This document shows positions 1,654-10,171 of a stretch of 26,496 nt of DNA, piece by piece; the first letter of the stretch is position 1; each line of letters starts with the position of its first letter. Source of the DNA: a virus. The translations under genes were made by a program, and so were the position numbers. The notes under the pieces were generated by a model, which did no database searches, was not told the DNA's origin, and worked only from the letters and a program-made list of their open reading frames with translations. The DNA lies in IMG/VR virus record IMGVR_UViG_3300033146_003124, positions 1-26,496 of that record. One strand, given 5' to 3'.

Positions 1654-3145
1654 ATTTATTGAAAGCGGTAAAAATGAAGCTTTCAAAAAATTATCTAATG
1701 TCTTTGAGGATTTTTGTTTAATATATTTTGATTTTCAAATAACAAAGGAACAAAAATTATCATCTCAAGTTTTATTCAAAAGAGTTTTTGCACGAAAAAA
1801 TCACACAGTTATTTTTAATTGGGTAAGGCAATATGGAAAATCAGAACTTATTTGTTTAATTCTTATTTTTCTTGCTAGAGTTTTTCCTTTATTTTTCAAC
1901 GAAAATTATAAAGTTTGTTTTACAGCTCCAGAAAAAAATACTTCTAGTGAAATATTTTTGAAGATTAAAAATAAATTAAATGAATTAAAAACTAGATACC
2001 CTGATACTTGGGGCGGTGAAATATCAAATGATAGAGCAACTTTGCATAATGGCTCTACTTTTATCCAGTTTGGAATTTATAAAGGATATGCAACAAAAGA
2101 AACACAAAAAAGCACAAAAGAGGGAAGAACATTCAATATCATTATAAGAGATGAAGCACATCTAGGAGATGACTACATCTACAGAGACCAATTGCTACCC
2201 GCATTATCTACAACTGGTGGAATAGATGTTTTAATTTCTACTGGTGGCTTTAGAAATTGTTTAGCAAAAGAAAAAATAGAAAGTGCAAAAAATGGAAGTA
2301 ATATAGAAAATATATATTGGAATGAAGACAATACTCTTTTTTATATGGACTATGTAAAGGCAAAAATATCAGCACAAGAGGAATATGAGAGAACAAAAAA
2401 TGAAAGGTGGATAAGGTGGATAGATTTTCAAGAAAAATACATAAAAGATAACGGAATAAGTTCAGATGAAGTTCAAAAAAATCTTTATCTTAAATGGTTA
2501 GTAAACTTCGGAAACTTTATACCTTGGGAAGATTTAATAAAATTAAGAAGAGAAAAAGAAGAATTTAACACAGATATTTGTGATGTAGGTATAGATTGGG
2601 GTAAGTCAAATGATGAAACATATGCAGTTATAACAGACTATGAGTTTAATGTAAGAGATATAGAAGTATTTAAAGGAGATTATATAAATAAGCAATGTCC
2701 AGATATAGCAGAATGGATAAAAGAAAAAAGAAAAACACTCAAAATCAAAAGAGTTTTTTCAGATAGTACAGGAGTTGGTGATCCCGTCATCTCAAGTTTG
2801 AAAGTAGAATTTAGAAAAAAGGGATTTGTATTACTAGTAAAAAGAATTGTTTTTACAGCTCAAAGTAAAAATCTTCTAGCTAGAAAAGGCCAAAAAGTAA
2901 TGTTCGCAGAAAAAGAAAAAGAAAGATTAAGCTATCCAGCAAACCATAAATTTACAAACAAATTCGAAAAACAATTTAGAAAGTTAATCAAAACTACTAG
3001 AGAAAGAGACGGATTAATAAGCTATTCACATCCAAATGAGCCAAATATACACGATGATATTCCAGATTCAACATTACTTTCTATCTTTGGGACAGCGAAA
3101 ATTAAAAAAACAAGAAACTTTGAAACAAAACCTAGCGAGTTTTAG
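1631..3145 (+). CDS. terL: Terminase large subunit (TerL), ATPase and nuclease
   Basis: This 504-residue protein is the packaging motor that pumps DNA into the prohead and cuts it. The ATPase domain shows a Walker A variant WVRQYGKSE (residues 64-72, K70) and Walker B with DEAH (IIRDEAHLGDD, D174/E175). The C-terminal RNase H-like nuclease domain has its acidic residues in place: D322 in DVGIDWGKS, D378 in FSDSTGVGDP and the NIHDD motif at 473-476. Length is normal for the family and all key residues are present, so it looks functional. It overlaps the small subunit by 23 bp and is followed 45 bp later by the portal gene. No frameshift or intron seen. Confidence 0.96.
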   Translation: MLDQKTIKFIESGKNEAFKKLSNVFEDFCLIYFDFQITKEQKLSSQVLFKRVFARKNHTVIFNWVRQYGKSELICLILIFLARVFPLFFNENYKVCFTAPEKNTSSEIFLKIKNKLNELKTRYPDTWGGEISNDRATLHNGSTFIQFGIYKGYATKETQKSTKEGRTFNIIIRDEAHLGDDYIYRDQLLPALSTTGGIDVLISTGGFRNCLAKEKIESAKNGSNIENIYWNEDNTLFYMDYVKAKISAQEEYERTKNERWIRWIDFQEKYIKDNGISSDEVQKNLYLKWLVNFGNFIPWEDLIKLRREKEEFNTDICDVGIDWGKSNDETYAVITDYEFNVRDIEVFKGDYINKQCPDIAEWIKEKRKTLKIKRVFSDSTGVGDPVISSLKVEFRKKGFVLLVKRIVFTAQSKNLLARKGQKVMFAEKEKERLSYPANHKFTNKFEKQFRKLIKTTRERDGLISYSHPNEPNIHDDIPDSTLLSIFGTAKIKKTRNFETKPSEF

Positions 3146-3190
3146 CGGAAAAAATTGTAAAATGTAAATAAATAAAGTAATTTAAACAAA

Positions 3191-4600
3191 ATGAAAATCA
3201 TAAATAATTTAAATTTTCCAAAGGCAGAGGAAACAGCAAGAGCAAAAAACATAGAAAATAACTATTCTTTATTTCTAGGAGAATACAACAAAATTCTAAA
3301 ATTTCTTGGAGAAGTAGCAGAAAAAAATAAATATTATCAAGATAAATCAGTCAAAAATAAAATAGAAGTAGTTTTAAATTATACGAGGTTAATAAGTAGA
3401 AATTTTGCGGATTTAATGTTTTTAGAAAATCCACAAATAAAAGTAGAAGATGAAAAAGCACAACAAGAACTAGATGACTTCTTGGACCGAGCAAATGGAA
3501 GTGGTAATTTTTATGATTTACTTTATAAATCAGCAATAACTCAAAGTTATGCTGGTTTTACATGCTTTGAAGCTTATAAGGAAGACAACGAAGTGAAAGT
3601 ACAGGAGATAATACCTTCAAGAGTTTTTCCTCAATTCGCCAATGGTAAAGACACACCAGAAGAGATAATAATATCTTGGATAGTAAATATTCCAGAAAAT
3701 AACAGAGATAAATTCTATTATTTTATGCGAAAACATACAGTAGGATTAATAAAATATGAATTGTACTCGATCAAGGCAAATGGAAGCATCGGTGAAAAAG
3801 TAAGTATAAAAAAATATAGCGAAGATTTACCAGAAGAAGAAAAAACAGGTCTTGACATTATGCCTGTTTGGTTTGTAAATAACTATTCTACAAGTAGAGA
3901 TTTTTTCGGATATTCAGACTATGAAGACATAAAAAGCCCTATCAAAGAACTTTGCAGAAGCTTATCACAGATAGCAACACAACTAGAAAAACACGCAAAT
4001 GCAAAAATTGCCGTGCCAGTCGGAACACTAGATGAAAATGGAGAAGTACAAAATAAAAATATGGAAGTTTTTGAAGTCGATTCAATGGAAAACGGAAATT
4101 TTATGATACCCGAATATATAGAGCCAAAAAATCCATTAATCGAACAAGCTTTTAAAAATATCAATCTAATGAATGAAGCAATAGCTAGATTATCTCAACA
4201 AGATAAAATGTCTTTTGGATTAGATGCAAAGGGAGGAGCTGAAAAAGTAGGGGCTTTACTACTTAGAATGTATCCAATGCTAATAGCAACAAAGAGGAAA
4301 TTAAAAGGATACACAAACTTCATTAAGACTTTTTTATCTTTTGCTATGCAATGGGAAGGGGTAGAAATACAAAAAAAAGATATAAGCATAAGTTATCACA
4401 ATGGACTTCCTCAAGATGTCTTAGAGCAAACTACTATTGAAGCAGAGAGGATAAAATACGGCATACAAACCAAAGGAGATGCAATCAGAAATTTAGATAA
4501 AATAAGTGGTGATGCTTTAACAAATAAATTAGAAGAAATAAAACTAGAAGCACAACAAGAACAAAGTGCAATTTTCGGAACACCGCAAATAAAACTTTAA
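3191..4600 (+). CDS. Portal protein (SPP1 gp6-like family)
   Basis: The portal forms the ring at the capsid vertex through which DNA enters and to which the tail attaches. This 469-residue protein has the expected size and the typical early segment NYTRLISRNFADLMFLENPQ (residues 58-77), then PSRVFPQF and a central INLMNEAIARLSQQDKMSFG stretch, and an acidic/Gln-rich helical C-terminus. These features match the SPP1 gp6-like portal family as I know it. Gene order (after TerL) confirms it. An AATTTAAA element lies 4 nt before the ATG, a shorter spacing than elsewhere. The next gene starts directly after the stop codon. Confidence 0.92.
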   Translation: MKIINNLNFPKAEETARAKNIENNYSLFLGEYNKILKFLGEVAEKNKYYQDKSVKNKIEVVLNYTRLISRNFADLMFLENPQIKVEDEKAQQELDDFLDRANGSGNFYDLLYKSAITQSYAGFTCFEAYKEDNEVKVQEIIPSRVFPQFANGKDTPEEIIISWIVNIPENNRDKFYYFMRKHTVGLIKYELYSIKANGSIGEKVSIKKYSEDLPEEEKTGLDIMPVWFVNNYSTSRDFFGYSDYEDIKSPIKELCRSLSQIATQLEKHANAKIAVPVGTLDENGEVQNKNMEVFEVDSMENGNFMIPEYIEPKNPLIEQAFKNINLMNEAIARLSQQDKMSFGLDAKGGAEKVGALLLRMYPMLIATKRKLKGYTNFIKTFLSFAMQWEGVEIQKKDISISYHNGLPQDVLEQTTIEAERIKYGIQTKGDAIRNLDKISGDALTNKLEEIKLEAQQEQSAIFGTPQIKL

Positions 4601-5101
4601 ATGAAAATAGAAAACATAGAAATTGATAAACTAAAACCTTATAAAAGAAATGCGAGAATCCATTCAAAAAAACAAATAGATTTGTTAGCTCAAAATATAG
4701 TTAAATTTGGATTTACAACACCAGTTTTAATTGATGAAAAAAATAATATCATAGCAGGACACGGGAGATTAGAAGCTATGAAGCAACTCAAAGGTAAAAA
4801 TATACCTTGTGTTAGAATGGAAAATCTAACTAAAGAAGAGGTAAGAGCTTTGAGATTAGCAGATAATAAAATAGCAGAAATGGGAGAGTGGGATCTCGAT
4901 TTAGCTATAGAAGAAATAAAAGGATTAAATGATGATTTGATAGGTTTAAGTGGATTTGATTTAGAGAAAATCTCTAAAATTGCAGAAGTAGAAGAAATTG
5001 ATTTTGATAACATAAAAGGAAATGAAGAAAGAGAAAAGCAATTCAAAGAAGAGCTTATAAATTGTCCTCATTGTAATAAATCTTTTAAAATACAAATTTA
5101 A
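4601..5101 (+). CDS. ParB/sulfiredoxin-fold domain protein (ParB-like)
   Basis: The 166-residue product begins with a ParB N-terminal-like domain (residues 5-110): KLKPYKRNARIH, GFTTPVLID, and the diagnostic GHGR motif (G53-R56) in AGHGRLEAM, followed by VRALRLADNKIAEMGEWD. In phages this domain is commonly fused or adjacent to DNA methyltransferases, where it is thought to bind DNA or nucleotide cofactors; it is not expected to segregate plasmids. The C-terminus ends in CPHCNKSFKI (C155, C158), half of a zinc knuckle. It starts right after the portal stop and is followed after 2 bp by an adenine methylase, so the two probably work together on DNA modification. A serine-kinase-like or nuclease role cannot be excluded. 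Confidence 0.87.
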   Translation: MKIENIEIDKLKPYKRNARIHSKKQIDLLAQNIVKFGFTTPVLIDEKNNIIAGHGRLEAMKQLKGKNIPCVRMENLTKEEVRALRLADNKIAEMGEWDLDLAIEEIKGLNDDLIGLSGFDLEKISKIAEVEEIDFDNIKGNEEREKQFKEELINCPHCNKSFKIQI

Positions 5102-5103
5102 AA

Positions 5104-5991
5104 ATGCCACTACCTTATTTAGGAAGTAAAAGAAAATCAGCTGGTAAAATATATCAAGCAATCAAAAATCTAAATCCAAAATCAACTAAATTAGTTGATT
5201 TGCTTTGTGGTGGTTTTGCTATTTCAGAATATTTTTTAAAAAATGGATGGAGTGTTTTAGCAAATGATAAAAACAAATATATAATAGCAATTTTAGAACA
5301 AACAATTTTAAAAGATTTAGATATAAATAAATGTTTAGAATTTGTTAGCAGAGAAAAATTTTTTGATGTCATTAATAACCCTCAAAAATATGAGAACTGG
5401 TATGTAGGATATGTTTTATCTTGCTGGAGCTTTGGAAATAATCAAAAAGGTTATTTATTTGGTAAAACAGTAGAAAAACATAAAAAAGCTGGACATGAAT
5501 TAGTTATAAATAAAAACCCTGAATTAATTAAAAAATTAATTCCGAATATGCCTCAAAAATATTTAGATGGAATTTTAAAGCAAGACAACTGGCACAAAAG
5601 AAGAATAGCACTTTTAAAAGTATGTAAATATTTGAAAACTAGAAAATTTGAACTACAACAACTAGAACGACTAGAACGACTAGAACGACTAGAACAACTA
5701 GAACAACTGGCATTTTCTTCTTTAGATTATAAGGAGGTTAAAATCTCTAAGAACGATGTTATATATTGTGACCCTCCATATGAAAAAACAGCAGAATACA
5801 AAGAAAGTGTAAATTATAAAGAGTTTTGGAACTGGTGCAGAGAAAAATCAAAAACAAATAATGTATATATAAGTGAATATAATGCCCCAAAAGATTTTAG
5901 AAAAATTTTAAGCTTTGAACAAAAATCAAGTTTATGCGGAGGCACAAACCAAGACCAGCCAAACGAATGTTTATTTACTTTTGATAAATGA
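5104..5991 (+). CDS. DNA adenine methyltransferase, D12 class (Dam-like)
   Basis: The 295-residue enzyme should transfer a methyl group from S-adenosylmethionine to N6 of adenine. Residues 2-12 (PLPYLGSKRKS) form the N-terminal motif of the D12 class, residues around 31-40 (LVDLLCGGF) the SAM-binding loop, and DPPY at 223-226 the catalytic motif, followed by YKEFWNWCREKS and ISEYNAP. Between these lies an unusual Leu-Glu-Arg/Gln repeat (residues 184-201) encoded by a 9-bp tandem array. Likely role: protecting phage DNA from host restriction, or modifying packaging or replication sites; no partner endonuclease is visible. It follows the ParB-like gene by 2 bp and its TGA overlaps the next ATG. 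Confidence 0.93.
   Translation: MPLPYLGSKRKSAGKIYQAIKNLNPKSTKLVDLLCGGFAISEYFLKNGWSVLANDKNKYIIAILEQTILKDLDINKCLEFVSREKFFDVINNPQKYENWYVGYVLSCWSFGNNQKGYLFGKTVEKHKKAGHELVINKNPELIKKLIPNMPQKYLDGILKQDNWHKRRIALLKVCKYLKTRKFELQQLERLERLERLEQLEQLAFSSLDYKEVKISKNDVIYCDPPYEKTAEYKESVNYKEFWNWCREKSKTNNVYISEYNAPKDFRKILSFEQKSSLCGGTNQDQPNECLFTFDK
5653..5706 (+). repeat. In-frame 9-bp tandem repeat inside the methylase gene
   Basis: Six 9-bp units: CTACAACAA, three CTAGAACGA and two CTAGAACAA, followed by a degenerate CTGGCA. Each encodes Leu-Gln/Glu-Arg/Gln. The three central units are base-identical, which suggests recent unit duplication rather than protein-level selection alone. Because the unit is three codons, gain or loss changes protein length without breaking the frame. 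Confidence 0.95.
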
Positions 5992-6233
5992 TTTTCTTTC
6001 TAGCAACTCCCTTATTATTACTTTCTGGAATACCGCAAATAATAAAACTGATTAAATCTAAAAAATCAGATGATATTTCTTTATTCACTTATGTTCTAAC
6101 TTATTTTGCTATAACTTTAATTTTAATTAAGTCAATTTTAGAAAATCAAATTGAAATAGCTTTGGCAAATTCAATGAGTTTTATAACGCTATCAATAAAT
6201 ATTTATCTTATTATTAAATTTAGATTAAAATAG
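5988..6233 (+). CDS. SemiSWEET / PQ-loop family small membrane transporter
   Basis: The 81-residue product is almost all membrane: three predicted helices at about 2-21, 30-50 and 54-77. It carries the PQ-loop signature SGIPQIIKLIKSKKSDDIS (P16-Q17 at the end of helix 1) and a conserved Asn (N60) in ALANSMSFITLSINIYLI, as in bacterial SemiSWEETs, which dimerise to move sugars across the inner membrane. Length matches a single SemiSWEET half. The ATG overlaps the methylase stop (ATGA), so it is part of the phage operon rather than a stray fragment. A sugar substrate is inference; it could instead act as a membrane-altering protein after infection. I know of no standard role for this family in a phage head module. 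Confidence 0.75.
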   Translation: MIFFLATPLLLLSGIPQIIKLIKSKKSDDISLFTYVLTYFAITLILIKSILENQIEIALANSMSFITLSINIYLIIKFRLK

Positions 6234-6237
6234 ATTT

Positions 6238-6693
6238 ATGAAAGATATAATTATATATGATGATTTTGATTTAAATATTAAAGAAGATATTTTTTATTTT
6301 TCAAAATTTCATTTTTTAATGATTTTATTAAAAATTTATGAAGATTATAAACAAGAAAAATTAGATATTTATACTTATAGTATTTCAGCTAAAGATTATT
6401 TTTTATTAAAAAATAATATTAAAAATTTAAAAGTTTGTGCAGATGAAACAATGAAATTTTATAGAAAAAATAGAAATTTTGCTTTTTTTTTAAAAGAAAT
6501 AAGATTTGCAAAAATCCATATTAAAACATATATATTTGATGATATGGTTATTTTTTCTTCTGCTAATGTAAGTTCAAAAAATAAAACAGAATTCTTTTTT
6601 TTAAAAAAAATTTGTAAAAAAACAAGAAAAAATTTAATTTCTAATATAGAAAAAACTTTGCTAAGAAGAAAAAGAAGAAAAATAGATTTATGA
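6238..6693 (+). CDS. Phospholipase D-fold protein with a single HKD motif
   Basis: The 151-residue protein carries one full HKD signature near the middle to C-terminal part: H94-x-K96-x4-D101-x6-S108-x-N110, read as HIKTYIFDDMVIFSSANVSS. This is the catalytic pattern of the phospholipase D superfamily (HxKx4Dx6GSxN, with Ser for Gly at 107). Single-HKD members work as homodimers and include nucleases (Nuc, BfiI) as well as lipid enzymes. The C-terminus is very basic (KKTRKN, LLRRKRRK), favouring a nucleic-acid or membrane-surface substrate. Composition is extremely AT-rich even for this genome, which hints at separate acquisition. An AGATTAAA element is 8 nt before the ATG. Reaction and target are not known. 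Confidence 0.75.
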   Translation: MKDIIIYDDFDLNIKEDIFYFSKFHFLMILLKIYEDYKQEKLDIYTYSISAKDYFLLKNNIKNLKVCADETMKFYRKNRNFAFFLKEIRFAKIHIKTYIFDDMVIFSSANVSSKNKTEFFFLKKICKKTRKNLISNIEKTLLRRKRRKIDL

Positions 6694-6896
6694 AAATCTA
6701 CAATATAGGAGGGAAAAATCCTATAAATAAAATCAAAAAGAAGCATGAGAAAGTAAATAAATTTATTGAAGATAAAAGAGAAATTATAGATTATTGGAAG
6801 TTTAGAATTTTGCTTGGATTTATATTTTGTCTCTTGAGTGGCTTTTTTGTATTTTCAACAACTTTTGCATTTAAATTTGTTTTATGGATATTTTGA
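6690..6896 (+). CDS. Small membrane protein, 68 aa
   Basis: Starts in an ATGA overlap with the preceding gene. The first 35 residues are hydrophilic and basic (NPINKIKKKHEKVNKF), the rest is hydrophobic (residues about 40-67: FRILLGFIFCLLSGFFVF then a second short hydrophobic run), so one or two membrane helices with a cytoplasmic N-terminus are likely by the positive-inside rule. No family recognised. Small phage membrane proteins in such positions are often superinfection-exclusion or lysis-timing factors, but nothing specific supports either here. Confidence 0.6.
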   Translation: MKIYNIGGKNPINKIKKKHEKVNKFIEDKREIIDYWKFRILLGFIFCLLSGFFVFSTTFAFKFVLWIF

Positions 6897-6935
6897 TAAT
6901 TTGTGATCACGAAGAATTTAAAACATACTCAACTT

Positions 6936-7187
6936 ATGAATAAAAATTTAGAAATTCATAAAGAATGTTTTGTTTTAAAAGCAGAAGAAAAAGAAGATTA
7001 TTTAAAATTTGAAATTCAAAAAGGGAAATTCAAAGGTCAAAATTTAGAAGCTAGTTTAGTACTCGGATATAGTGTTTTTATTGTTTTGATAAAAAGAAAA
7101 AATCTAAACTTTTCTTTAGAAGATATTTTTAAAACAGAAGCAGAAGCAAAAGAATATTTAATAAAAATATTAAGTGAAAAACAATAA
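6936..7187 (+). CDS. Hypothetical protein, about 83 aa
   Basis: A cytoplasmic-looking protein with alternating charged and beta-prone segments (EDYLKFEIQKGKFKGQNLE, then GYSVFIVLIKRKNLNF) and a helical end (AEAKEYLIKILSEKQ). I chose ATG 6936, which has an AATTTAAA 13 nt upstream; a GTG at 6903 would add 11 residues and sit only 6 bp after the previous stop, so either is possible. The stop overlaps the next gene by 14 bp. Family not recognised. It is the last gene of the cassette that separates portal from minor capsid protein. Confidence 0.6.
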   Translation: MNKNLEIHKECFVLKAEEKEDYLKFEIQKGKFKGQNLEASLVLGYSVFIVLIKRKNLNFSLEDIFKTEAEAKEYLIKILSEKQ

Positions 7188-8157
7188 AGAATTTTTAAAA
7201 AAGAATTCGGAAGAAATAGCTAGTTTTTATGCAAAAGCTCAAATAAAAATCATTGATAATTTAATGAGATTCGGGAAAGTCTCAATGACAAAACCACGAG
7301 CTGGAAAAATGCTAGAAAAGATAAATGAAGTAATAGAAGAATTAGATGAAGAAACTAAAAAATGGATAGCTGAAAAATTGCCAGAAAGTTATAAAAAATT
7401 TGGCAATGAAGCAAAAAAACAAATTAGATTATTCGGCTATGATGTAGGAGATGAGTTCGCAGTAATCCATACAAGAGCAGTACAGACCTTAGCAGATGAC
7501 AGTTATTTAAGATTTGCTAGGTCAATGACAGCGATAAATGAAGTAAGCGAGGAAATAATAAATTTTGGACTACAAAAAGAAATCAGAGAAGAAATAGCAA
7601 GTGGACTAATAACAGGAGAAGCCAGAAAAGAAATAAGCGAAGACATAGCAAGGAAAATAAAGAATGAGGGAATAACAGTCTTAGTGGATAAAGGAGGCAA
7701 GAGGTGGCAATTGAACAATTATACAAGAATGTTAGCAATTACAACTATGTCTAATGCTGGAAATCAAGGAGCAGAAAATATATTGATAGAAAATAACTTT
7801 GATGTAGTACAAGTTAGTAATCATGGAACTATATGTCCTTTATGTTTACCTTATGAAGGTAGATATTTATCACTAACAGGGAAAACAAAAGGATTAACAA
7901 CAATTTCAGAAGCTCGAAGTAATCATTTTCAGCATCCAAATTGCCTCCACAGTTTTTCGGCAGTCAATCCAAATGACTACAAAAAAGCACAAGCAGAGCC
8001 AAAACCAAAACCGCTAAATCAAGAAGAAAAGAAAAAGCTAAATGATATTTTAAAAGAAAATGACATAAAAGGAAATTTACAAGAAAATTTATCAACAGAA
8101 GATAAAAGACAAAAATTTTATCAAGCTCAAAGAGATGTAAAAAAAGAGTTTAAATAG
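7174..8157 (+). CDS. Phage minor capsid / head morphogenesis protein
   Basis: The 327-residue protein resembles the minor capsid protein 2 / Mu gpF-like group, which contacts the portal and helps initiate or complete head assembly. A long helical N-terminal half (residues 1-170, including the repeated-looking EISEDIARKIKNEG) leads to RMLAITTMSNAGNQGA and the characteristic Cys/His module: SNHGTICPLCLPYEGRYLS, then HFQHPNCLHSFSAV, probably a metal-binding or disulphide fold. The tail is charged and low complexity (PKPKPLNQEEKKK). The start is GTG, overlapping the preceding gene by 14 bp; an ATG 30 residues in would truncate the helical domain. In related phages this gene directly follows the portal; here six genes intervene. 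Confidence 0.84.
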   Translation: MKNNKEFLKKNSEEIASFYAKAQIKIIDNLMRFGKVSMTKPRAGKMLEKINEVIEELDEETKKWIAEKLPESYKKFGNEAKKQIRLFGYDVGDEFAVIHTRAVQTLADDSYLRFARSMTAINEVSEEIINFGLQKEIREEIASGLITGEARKEISEDIARKIKNEGITVLVDKGGKRWQLNNYTRMLAITTMSNAGNQGAENILIENNFDVVQVSNHGTICPLCLPYEGRYLSLTGKTKGLTTISEARSNHFQHPNCLHSFSAVNPNDYKKAQAEPKPKPLNQEEKKKLNDILKENDIKGNLQENLSTEDKRQKFYQAQRDVKKEFK

Positions 8158-8226
8158 TATAACTTTACAAAACTAAAATATATTGTATTCTTTTTTTAAT
8201 CGTGGCGTTGCACGAAAAACACGAAA

Positions 8227-8234
8227 AATTTAAT
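8227..8234 (+). promoter_or_regulatory. Start-site motif that decides the scaffold start
   Basis: AATTTAAT, 9 nt before ATG 8244. The same element stands 8 nt before the starts of the major capsid protein and the last gene of the window. It favours ATG 8244 over the upstream GTG 8202, which has no such element. Confidence 0.5.
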
Positions 8235-8243
8235 TTTAAACCT

Positions 8244-8939
8244 ATGATTTTTTACAAAAGAAATCAAAAAACAAATTCTTTATTTAAAGAAAAACGATTT
8301 ATTTTCTTAAATGAAAAAGCAGAATCCAACGAGTCGAACTCGAAAAAAAACGAGGAAAAAGCAGAAGACAATAAAGAAAATATGATACCGCAATCAAGAT
8401 TAAATCAAGTTTTAGATAAGTCTAAAGAACTTGAAAGCAAACTCGCAGAATTTCAAGCAAAAGAAACTGAAAGGGAAGCTAAATCTAAAACAGAAGCAGA
8501 GGCAGAGGCGGTAAAAAAGGGAGAATTTGAAAAAGTATTGAAATCTAAAGATGAAGAACTGGGAATATTGAAAGCTAAGCTAGAAAAAAATCAAACTTCT
8601 TTAACTGATTATGAATCAGAAGTAGAAAAGATTTTAAAAAGCAAAATTGAGAAAATACCAAAAGAAAATAAAAGTCTCTTGGATGCTTTACCTAGTAATA
8701 TTTCAAATGTTCATCTTCTCAGATTCGTAGAAGCAAACGAAAGTAAATTAATCGGAAAAATCAATGTCGGAAATGGTGGAGGAAATCCACAAGGAGAAGA
8801 AATTGACACGAAAGAAAAAACTTTTAATACTTTGATACAAAAAAAGGAAAAAGGGGAAAAATTAAGTTTTATGGAAGAAAGGGAGCTAATGAAAACAGCT
8901 CGTGAAATAACTCTCAAGAAGAGAGAATCAAAAACATAA
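8244..8939 (+). CDS. Capsid scaffolding protein
   Basis: Scaffolding proteins fill the prohead, guide capsid assembly and then leave. The product (231 residues from ATG 8244; 245 if the in-frame GTG at 8202 is used) is highly charged and almost wholly helical. A low-complexity Glu/Asn/Lys stretch precedes IPQSRLNQVLDKSKELE, then a long coiled coil (KLAEFQAKETEREAKSK onward) and a C-terminal region with LLDALPSNISNVHLLRFVEAN, the pattern typical of scaffolds lying just before the major capsid gene. The stop is 14 bp before the capsid start. A TCGTG...CACGA mini-hairpin lies over the GTG alternative. No protease domain is seen, so scaffold removal may rely on exit or another enzyme. Confidence 0.8.
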   Translation: MIFYKRNQKTNSLFKEKRFIFLNEKAESNESNSKKNEEKAEDNKENMIPQSRLNQVLDKSKELESKLAEFQAKETEREAKSKTEAEAEAVKKGEFEKVLKSKDEELGILKAKLEKNQTSLTDYESEVEKILKSKIEKIPKENKSLLDALPSNISNVHLLRFVEANESKLIGKINVGNGGGNPQGEEIDTKEKTFNTLIQKKEKGEKLSFMEERELMKTAREITLKKRESKT

Positions 8940-8953
8940 TTTAATACAAGAAA

Positions 8954-10171
8954 ATGAGTAATTTTAATCTTAACGGATGTTATACTAACTATGATGACGC
9001 AAGTAATAAACCAGATGAGTTTATACTAGGAACAGCACAAACATTTAAACCTTTAGCATTCGAAGGCACACTTTTTAATCGTCTTTCAGGATGGGACAGA
9101 CCACTAGACAGAACAGCTTTCGAAATAGGAGGTAGAACACAATCAAGCCTTAGCGGATTATTAGGAGATGGAAGTGCAGGAGGATGGGATGCAACAGCAA
9201 CTACAGACCTACCGATACAATCAGATTATATTAATAATATAGGTATAGGAGATACACTAGAGGTAAAAAGCGGTGCAACCATAGAAGTAGTAACAGTCAA
9301 AGACATAGACAGAACAGCAGAAACAATAGATGTTTTCGCTCGTGGAGTAGGTTCAACAACAGGGGCAATTTGGGCAGACGGTTCAGCTTTTTCTGTTATT
9401 GGTACAGCTAATAATGACGGAAATGAACAAAATACAACTCAAAGAAGCGAGGCAACATATACATATACTAATTACGCTCAAACTCTAATTGAGACAGTTC
9501 AGTATTCAAAATCTAATGCAAACGAACCTCAAAAGTTTTATCAATCTCCAGAAGTTCTCGAAAGAGAAGCACTAGAGAGAATTTTTAAATTGATGATGAG
9601 AACAACTGTAAAAGGTGTAAAGGGAGCAGGAACAAAAGCAGGGCAACCATATACAACAGCAGGACTGCTAGACCAAATATCAGATAGTGCAGGTTCAACA
9701 AGGGATACACTAAGAACAAATATTGGTGGAGCTTTAACTCAAGCTAAATTAGAAGGTGGATTATCTGATGCACATAACTATGGTTCAGCTAGTACTATAA
9801 TTTGCAATCTAACTAATGCGAGAACAATCTCAGGATTTTCACCAGCGGCAACAGCAAGTTCAAGTACTCCAGTCGGATTTAGCGGTACAAATCTATATAC
9901 AAGAAATCAAGGAGATTTAGCAACTTCTTATGAATATAATGGGATGATGTTTAATCTTGCAATTGATAGAGATATGCCAACAGATAGAATATCTATTTCA
10001 GACACAGACAAAATCAAAGCTGGATTTGTAGCAGGAGATGAATTGAGATATGAAAAAGAAGGTACTAGATCATCTTCTAGGTTAGAAGTAGGAACTTATC
10101 AATGTAAATTTGCGGTAGCAGTCGAAGGAGTAGGAAGAGACCATGTAGATTTATACGGAATAACTTCTTAA
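8954..10171 (+). CDS. Major capsid protein (SU10-like, HK97 fold)
   Basis: This 405-residue protein would form the icosahedral shell. It resembles the SU10 / DUF5309 major capsid family: an early FLGTAQTFKPLAFEGTL-like region preceding FNRLSGWDRP, a YTNYAQTLIETVQYSKS segment near residues 170-190, LEREALERIFKLMMRTTVKG, and a beta-rich C-terminus ending in VEGVGRDHVDLYGI. There is an insertion-like domain (about residues 95-150) with DTLEVKSGATIEVVTV, a typical surface beta domain of the family. Codons are slightly richer in G/C than in neighbouring accessory genes, as expected for a highly expressed structural gene. AATTTAAT is exactly 8 nt before the ATG. Confidence 0.92.
   Translation: MSNFNLNGCYTNYDDASNKPDEFILGTAQTFKPLAFEGTLFNRLSGWDRPLDRTAFEIGGRTQSSLSGLLGDGSAGGWDATATTDLPIQSDYINNIGIGDTLEVKSGATIEVVTVKDIDRTAETIDVFARGVGSTTGAIWADGSAFSVIGTANNDGNEQNTTQRSEATYTYTNYAQTLIETVQYSKSNANEPQKFYQSPEVLEREALERIFKLMMRTTVKGVKGAGTKAGQPYTTAGLLDQISDSAGSTRDTLRTNIGGALTQAKLEGGLSDAHNYGSASTIICNLTNARTISGFSPAATASSSTPVGFSGTNLYTRNQGDLATSYEYNGMMFNLAIDRDMPTDRISISDTDKIKAGFVAGDELRYEKEGTRSSSRLEVGTYQCKFAVAVEGVGRDHVDLYGITS

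Follow-up and report, generated by a model that had tools for sequence, protein, structure and literature searches.

Genes between the portal and minor capsid genes of a phage are probably accessory cargo inserted at a usually closed junction

Portal and minor capsid genes usually sit side by side, which raises the question of why six genes lie between them in the 26.5-kb IMG/VR phage record IMGVR_UViG_3300033146_003124. We analysed the whole of this record (26,496 nucleotides; hereafter the window), which has a G+C content (GC) of 29% and in which terminase, portal, minor capsid, other head, tail and lysis genes run in a single direction. Positions 4601-7187 hold six intact, tightly packed + strand genes that separate the portal gene, ending at 4600, from the minor capsid gene, starting at 7174, by 2,573 bp. 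An initial annotation had proposed that the six genes form one system, acting in takeover or superinfection exclusion. We conclude that the region is probably an insertion of accessory cargo at the portal/minor capsid junction and not one six-gene system. The features concerned are as follows, with E-values in brackets; TM denotes transmembrane and PLD phospholipase D.

3191..4600, + strand: SPP1-type portal protein, left flank of the putative insertion (PF05133, 1.3e-14; phrog_533, 5.8e-29)
4601..5101, + strand: ParB/Srx-type protein with a C-terminal CxxC pair (phrog_620, 1.7e-49; phrog_498, 2.1e-43)
5104..5991, + strand: D12-class N6-adenine DNA methylase, DPPY motif intact (PF02086, 4.4e-13; phrog_56, 3.2e-27)
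5651..5708, + strand: 9-bp tandem repeat coding for part of an (Lxx)7 array (Tandem Repeats Finder score 88, the highest in the window)
5988..6233, + strand: SemiSWEET/PQ-loop membrane protein (PF04193, 2.7e-7; NF037968, 1.8e-10; structure 4qnc, 4.6e-6)
6238..6693, + strand: possible single-HKD PLD-like protein (PLDc_2 match of a fragment, 0.0064; DrmC, 0.015; HIKTYIFDDMVIFSSAN at amino acid 94)
6690..6896, + strand: TM68, a 68-aa protein with a basic N-terminal half and one C-terminal TM segment (67-aa open reading frame (ORF) of the same architecture at the same place in locus L011)
6903..7187, + strand: g94, a 94-aa soluble protein (no convincing family match)
7174..8157, + strand: minor capsid protein, right flank (PF06152, 8.7e-23; phrog_4611, 4.6e-38)

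All six ORFs were recovered where they had been annotated on the + strand, and recomputed gaps agreed with the tight packing (gaps of 2-4 bp, ATGA overlaps) described initially: portal-ParB 0, ParB-methylase +2, methylase-SemiSWEET -4 (ATGA), SemiSWEET-PLD-like +4, PLD-like-TM68 -4 (ATGA), TM68-g94 +6 and g94-minor capsid -14. The ORFs of 5988-6896 did not arise by chance, since 5,000 shuffles of this segment never gave a + strand ORF longer than 100 codons, as against 151 observed. The extra AT-richness ascribed to this last part is real: its GC is 18.4%, and the minimum of any 909-bp stretch elsewhere in the window is 23.3% (mean 29.9%, standard deviation 3.1%). Counted by gene, GC steps from 27% to 15-23% at position 5988. 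A promoter and terminator scan detected 24 promoter-like sites where 29.5 were expected, with a + strand signal not above chance, and no + strand terminator in 3000-9000. No promoter and terminator of its own, such as characterize a moron, were detected for the cassette, and its genes look co-transcribed.

Two portal profile scans of viral contigs yielded 80 and 21 loci, respectively. Across the 81 loci having both genes, the median distance between portal and minor capsid genes was 2 bp, which bears out the premise that the two are normally adjacent. The gap was at least 150 bp in 11 loci, at least 500 bp in 2 and at least 1 kb in just one (L057). In annotated Paenibacillus, Bacillus and Terrisporobacter phages the two genes likewise abut or overlap. 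As a separate observation, loci L072 (2400-2762) and L073 (3398-3760) have a 120-aa gene with a start resembling a helix-turn-helix between portal and minor capsid genes; by its look it is possibly a small terminase gene.

The nearest relative (locus L011, record G001) is 31,312 bp long with a 97-bp terminal direct repeat, suggesting that it is a whole genome. Its identity to the window is 41% for TerL, 38% for the portal protein and 31% for the minor capsid protein, and it is collinear with the window from TerL through the scaffold, head-tail, tail tube and tape measure genes and those that follow. Its portal-minor capsid gap holds a single ORF, which encodes a basic 67-aa protein with one C-terminal TM segment. 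Neither a ParB nor a SemiSWEET gene was found anywhere in the 31-kb record, and the methylase that it has is a different one, located in a non-structural region. Because the gap of L011 holds this similarly built ORF at the same place, TM68 is probably the resident gene of the interval. The 94-aa gene is perhaps a further addition; its GTG start is uncertain, and a start at the downstream ATG (6936) would shorten the product to 83 aa. Scans with TerL and minor capsid alignments recovered G001 as the sole relative, viral contig scans with single proteins (portal, PLD-like, SemiSWEET) gave no confirmed relative, and bacterial and archaeal genomes gave no match to the TerL and portal alignments.

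The first two genes of the set recur in part at or near the same site in other phages. Exactly in the portal-minor capsid interval of L057 (positions 2720-4161) lie a ParB-Dam fusion (PF05869) and, behind it, a 121-aa gene of unknown family. In L012, whose portal protein is 32% identical to that of the window, positions 1-2870 hold a partial ParB gene and then a Mom-type gene (PF25680, 1.1e-45), directly upstream of the terminase genes. Between its TerL and portal genes, Streptococcus phage VA460 carries a D12 methylase from the family to which that of the window belongs. No SemiSWEET or PLD-like gene stands beside the pair in these stretches of L057, L012 and VA460. Since three unrelated modification enzymes (D12, Dam and Mom) adjoin ParB, we suggest a functional link between ParB and the modification enzyme. 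ParB_N matched in 4 of 48 other related records. A PQ-loop match above the family cut-off was found in none of the 48, with one match far under it; PLDc_2 likewise matched none, a profile that is silent on the window too and so uninformative on a divergent protein. The search for the whole gene set that the initial annotation had called for therefore has a divided outcome: ParB with a modification enzyme recurs, and no second instance of the SemiSWEET-PLD pair was found among the sampled relatives, which are distant. The proposal of a single six-gene system is not supported, given a relative with the short membrane gene alone in its gap and without ParB or SemiSWEET in its record, two loci with ParB and a modification enzyme but no SemiSWEET or PLD-like gene at that place, and no SemiSWEET found in the 48 records.

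Profile searches upheld the initial calls for the ParB-like protein and the methylase. The phrog_620 match of the former, a phage ParB-like family, spans residues 1-163, and its Pfam ParB_N score (24.4) falls slightly under the cut-off of 26.3. Residues 8-145 of 436 in the PADLOC family MTase_II also matched (2.2e-26); the window ParB resembles the N-terminus of those type II methylases that carry a fused ParB domain. A Vibrio phage X29 protein is 43% identical to it. The methylase scored 50 bits against PF02086, above the curated threshold of 22, and matched the Dam structures 1yf3, 1yfj and 1q0s with E-values of 2e-9 to 4e-9. It starts with MPLPYLGSKRK (PY-GSK), the D of its CDPPY is residue 223, and profile searches confirm it as a D12-class N6-adenine methylase of predicted activity. 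DNA marking, which had been proposed for the set, is thus supported for its first two genes: most probably, ParB and the D12 methylase would bind the DNA of the phage itself and methylate it, so that it may resist host restriction.

Alternatively, ParB and the methylase could mark or license packaging sites, and for that reason adjoin terminase and portal genes. Position in the packaging/head module does recur (the window, L057, L012 and VA460), and GATC methylation has a packaging role in phage P1 according to PMC4190342. We consider this explanation unlikely, since ParB is missing from the nearest collinear relative, whose methylase is a different one and lies in a non-structural region, and since the low frequency of ParB_N among related records indicates that the pair is dispensable.

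The SemiSWEET-type call was supported by profile searches. The protein scored 30.7 bits against PF04193 (cut-off 22) and matched structure 4qnc; against the NCBIfam SemiSWEET model NF037968 it reached 40.8 bits, short of the cut-off of 80. On this sequence evidence we file it as a PQ-loop protein that is SemiSWEET-like. It is like bacterial SemiSWEETs (4qnc, 4rng) in length, in its three hydrophobic segments by hydropathy, in the PQ motif of the first helix, and in the LAN motif with its pocket Asn (N61). It differs from them in being phage-encoded and in having Ile45 at the position of the pocket Trp. In the Leptospira SemiSWEET the sugar-pocket residues are W48 and N64, and the Ile substitution makes sugar transport by this protein doubtful. 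A single-sequence AlphaFold model gave a helical hairpin of two helices with a mean predicted local distance difference test (pLDDT) of 81; designed bundles were its best structural matches, and SemiSWEET chains reached Z scores of only 3.8 and 2.4. Searching 50,697 phage records with the window protein and with a Leptospira SemiSWEET fragment gave no confirmed match, indicating that SemiSWEET-type genes are rare in phages. The sole match of the Leptospira fragment, MT837855 ('Bacteriophage sp.'), was set aside, as by eye the rest of its ORFs resemble bacterial genes (glycosyltransferases, a transporter, a sugar kinase and a thioredoxin-reductase-like protein). None of 183 pattern matches from a SemiSWEET alignment scan was confirmed, and we found nothing relevant in the literature on SemiSWEET or PQ-loop proteins in phages.

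The neighbouring gene had been annotated as a single-HKD protein of PLD fold, and this claim holds in part at best. The whole protein has no match in Pfam or PHROGs, and its query found none in phages and plasmids. A fragment (residues 42-119) picked around the motif has PLDc_2 as its sole Pfam match, at 16.8 bits against a cut-off of 27; in PADLOC the sole match is DrmC, a PLD-family protein. Compared with the canonical HxKx4Dx6GSxN, HIKTYIFDDMVIFSSAN has H, K and D in place, one residue fewer before SxN, and S for G. The pattern, which was relaxed after the motif had been seen, occurred in none of 200,000 shuffles and in none of the other ORFs (1.14 million residues). Neither a canonical HKD motif nor a PLDc_2 score above the cut-off was found. 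The protein has a net charge of +14 and no TM segment, and its gene is the most AT-rich of the 36 in the window (GC 0.15; GC at third codon positions 0.05). Its AlphaFold model (pLDDT 46) gave no useful structural match in fold searches, so structure prediction decides neither fold: these are single-sequence models, for the PLD-like protein as for the SemiSWEET hairpin. We therefore call the product of 6238-6693 PLD-like, a weakly supported designation, and not a PLD member.

If the PLD-like protein were a nuclease, the genes might form a restriction-modification-like self/non-self unit, in which ParB and the methylase mark the phage's own DNA and the PLD-like protein is the cognate nuclease acting on competing DNA. 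BfiI-type PLD nucleases and DrmC are parallels. The faint PLDc_2 and DrmC similarity at the HKD-like motif, the strong positive charge and a position 246 bp downstream of the methylase gene are compatible with this. The explanation is nevertheless quite unlikely: there is no recognition domain, the motif departs from the canonical one as described, the SemiSWEET gene intervenes between the methylase and PLD-like genes, and such a nuclease would endanger the phage's own DNA prior to methylation. Less likely again is the takeover or superinfection-exclusion system proposed initially, with the SemiSWEET, PLD-like and short membrane proteins at the host membrane and ParB and the methylase marking phage DNA. 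Tight packing with ATGA overlaps would suit it, as would two membrane proteins beside a basic, possibly PLD-like one, but G001 has the TM gene without the rest, L057 and L012 have ParB with a modification enzyme at or near the site without SemiSWEET or PLD-like genes, and the PADLOC families detected are limited to methylases and the weak DrmC match. A joint self/non-self system of ParB, methylase, SemiSWEET and PLD-like genes, in which methylation would tag the phage's own DNA and the PQ-loop protein would bring a basic PLD-type nuclease to the membrane to cut incoming DNA that lacks the tag, is highly improbable.

We thus favour an insertion of accessory cargo, in which the ParB, methylase, SemiSWEET and PLD-like genes (4601-6693) would be an extra block placed beside the resident TM gene (6690-6896). 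The SemiSWEET and PLD-like genes, both very AT-rich and with no supported role, were probably acquired separately, since such genes are rare in phages and the shift in composition begins at the SemiSWEET gene; they would be read from the same transcript as ParB and the methylase. Several points weigh against this explanation. With a nearest relative only 38-41% identical, loss of an older cassette in G001 is possible instead of gain in the window. Sequence similarity between TM68 and the 67-aa protein of L011 was not detectable. The packing and ATGA overlaps continue across the methylase-SemiSWEET boundary, favouring one translated unit. Small membrane proteins and lysine-rich proteins have an amino-acid composition that could add to the AT shift, which weakens the argument for a separate origin.

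Literature on two groups of phages agrees with insertion of cargo. Lactococcal 936 phages have orphan methylases in the packaging module (M.Phi145I, M.Phi93I and M.Phi93DAM) that shield DNA against HphI and DpnII; their terminase region is an insertion hotspot (PMC4190342). As in the window, accessory adenine methylase genes are inserted among packaging genes; the insertion lies between the small and large terminase genes, whereas that of the window follows the portal gene, and the part of PMC4190342 considered here does not mention ParB, SemiSWEET or PLD-like genes alongside the 936 methylases. Corndog-type Cluster O mycobacteriophages have four genes for non-structural enzymes, absent from virions, between portal and protease (PMC4351075). 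These resemble the window genes in lying between the portal and the next head gene, and differ in encoding an O-methyltransferase and glycosyltransferases with a proposed role in capsid modification (PMC4351075). A ParB-like domain is likewise combined with an adenine methylase in phage fusion proteins (phrog_498) and in the ParB-Dam gene of L057, the latter at exactly the same site as the window pair; the window has two separate genes, with a methylase of the D12 type (PF02086) and not of the Dam type (PF05869).

The methylase also contains an (Lxx)7 tripeptide array at residues 184-204, directly before DPPY. We compared loci L112, L113, L120, L130-L137, L009, L010, L114 and L115. Lactococcal 936 phages, Leuconostoc phage 1-A4, podophage Lau218 and a Cylindrospermopsis virus have methylases with the array at the equivalent position ahead of DPPY; the methylase of Streptococcus phage VA460 has the array, and DPPY was not found in it by exact search. 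Shorter relatives from Bacteroides, Vibrio, Enterococcus and Klebsiella phages are without it. In 936 phages, the array-bearing homologue of the window methylase sits in the replication module. Copy number ranges from 6 to 20 units across phage methylases, and the near-identical proteins of lactococcal phages LP0109 (6 units) and LP9205b (8 units) differ by two units with flanks 98.6% identical. The array counts 9 units in Phi15 and 20 in Phi93; the target motifs assigned to them by inference in PMC4190342 are CC6mAG and CY6mAG, respectively. A link between unit number and target motif, for which Phi15/Phi93 is the one pair, is a hypothesis only.

Two further observations concern head genes. 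Between the minor capsid and scaffold genes, L011 (12480-12621) has a tandem repeat of ~48 bp with one frame open, which together with the other end of the G001 record forms the 97-bp terminal repeat. Named by position only, the presumed major capsid protein of the window (8954-10171, 405 aa) matched nothing convincingly in Pfam, PHROGs and NCBIfam or among phage records.

A SemiSWEET-type protein in a phage is very unusual, as judged from the two queries of phage records, and the variable (Lxx)n array raises the question of whether repeat number tunes the target of phage methylases. More broadly, the portal/minor capsid junction, usually closed to a few bases, can take several accessory genes. 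The pairing of ParB with unrelated enzymes (D12, Dam and Mom), at this junction or by terminase genes, makes a common role in modification or packaging testable.

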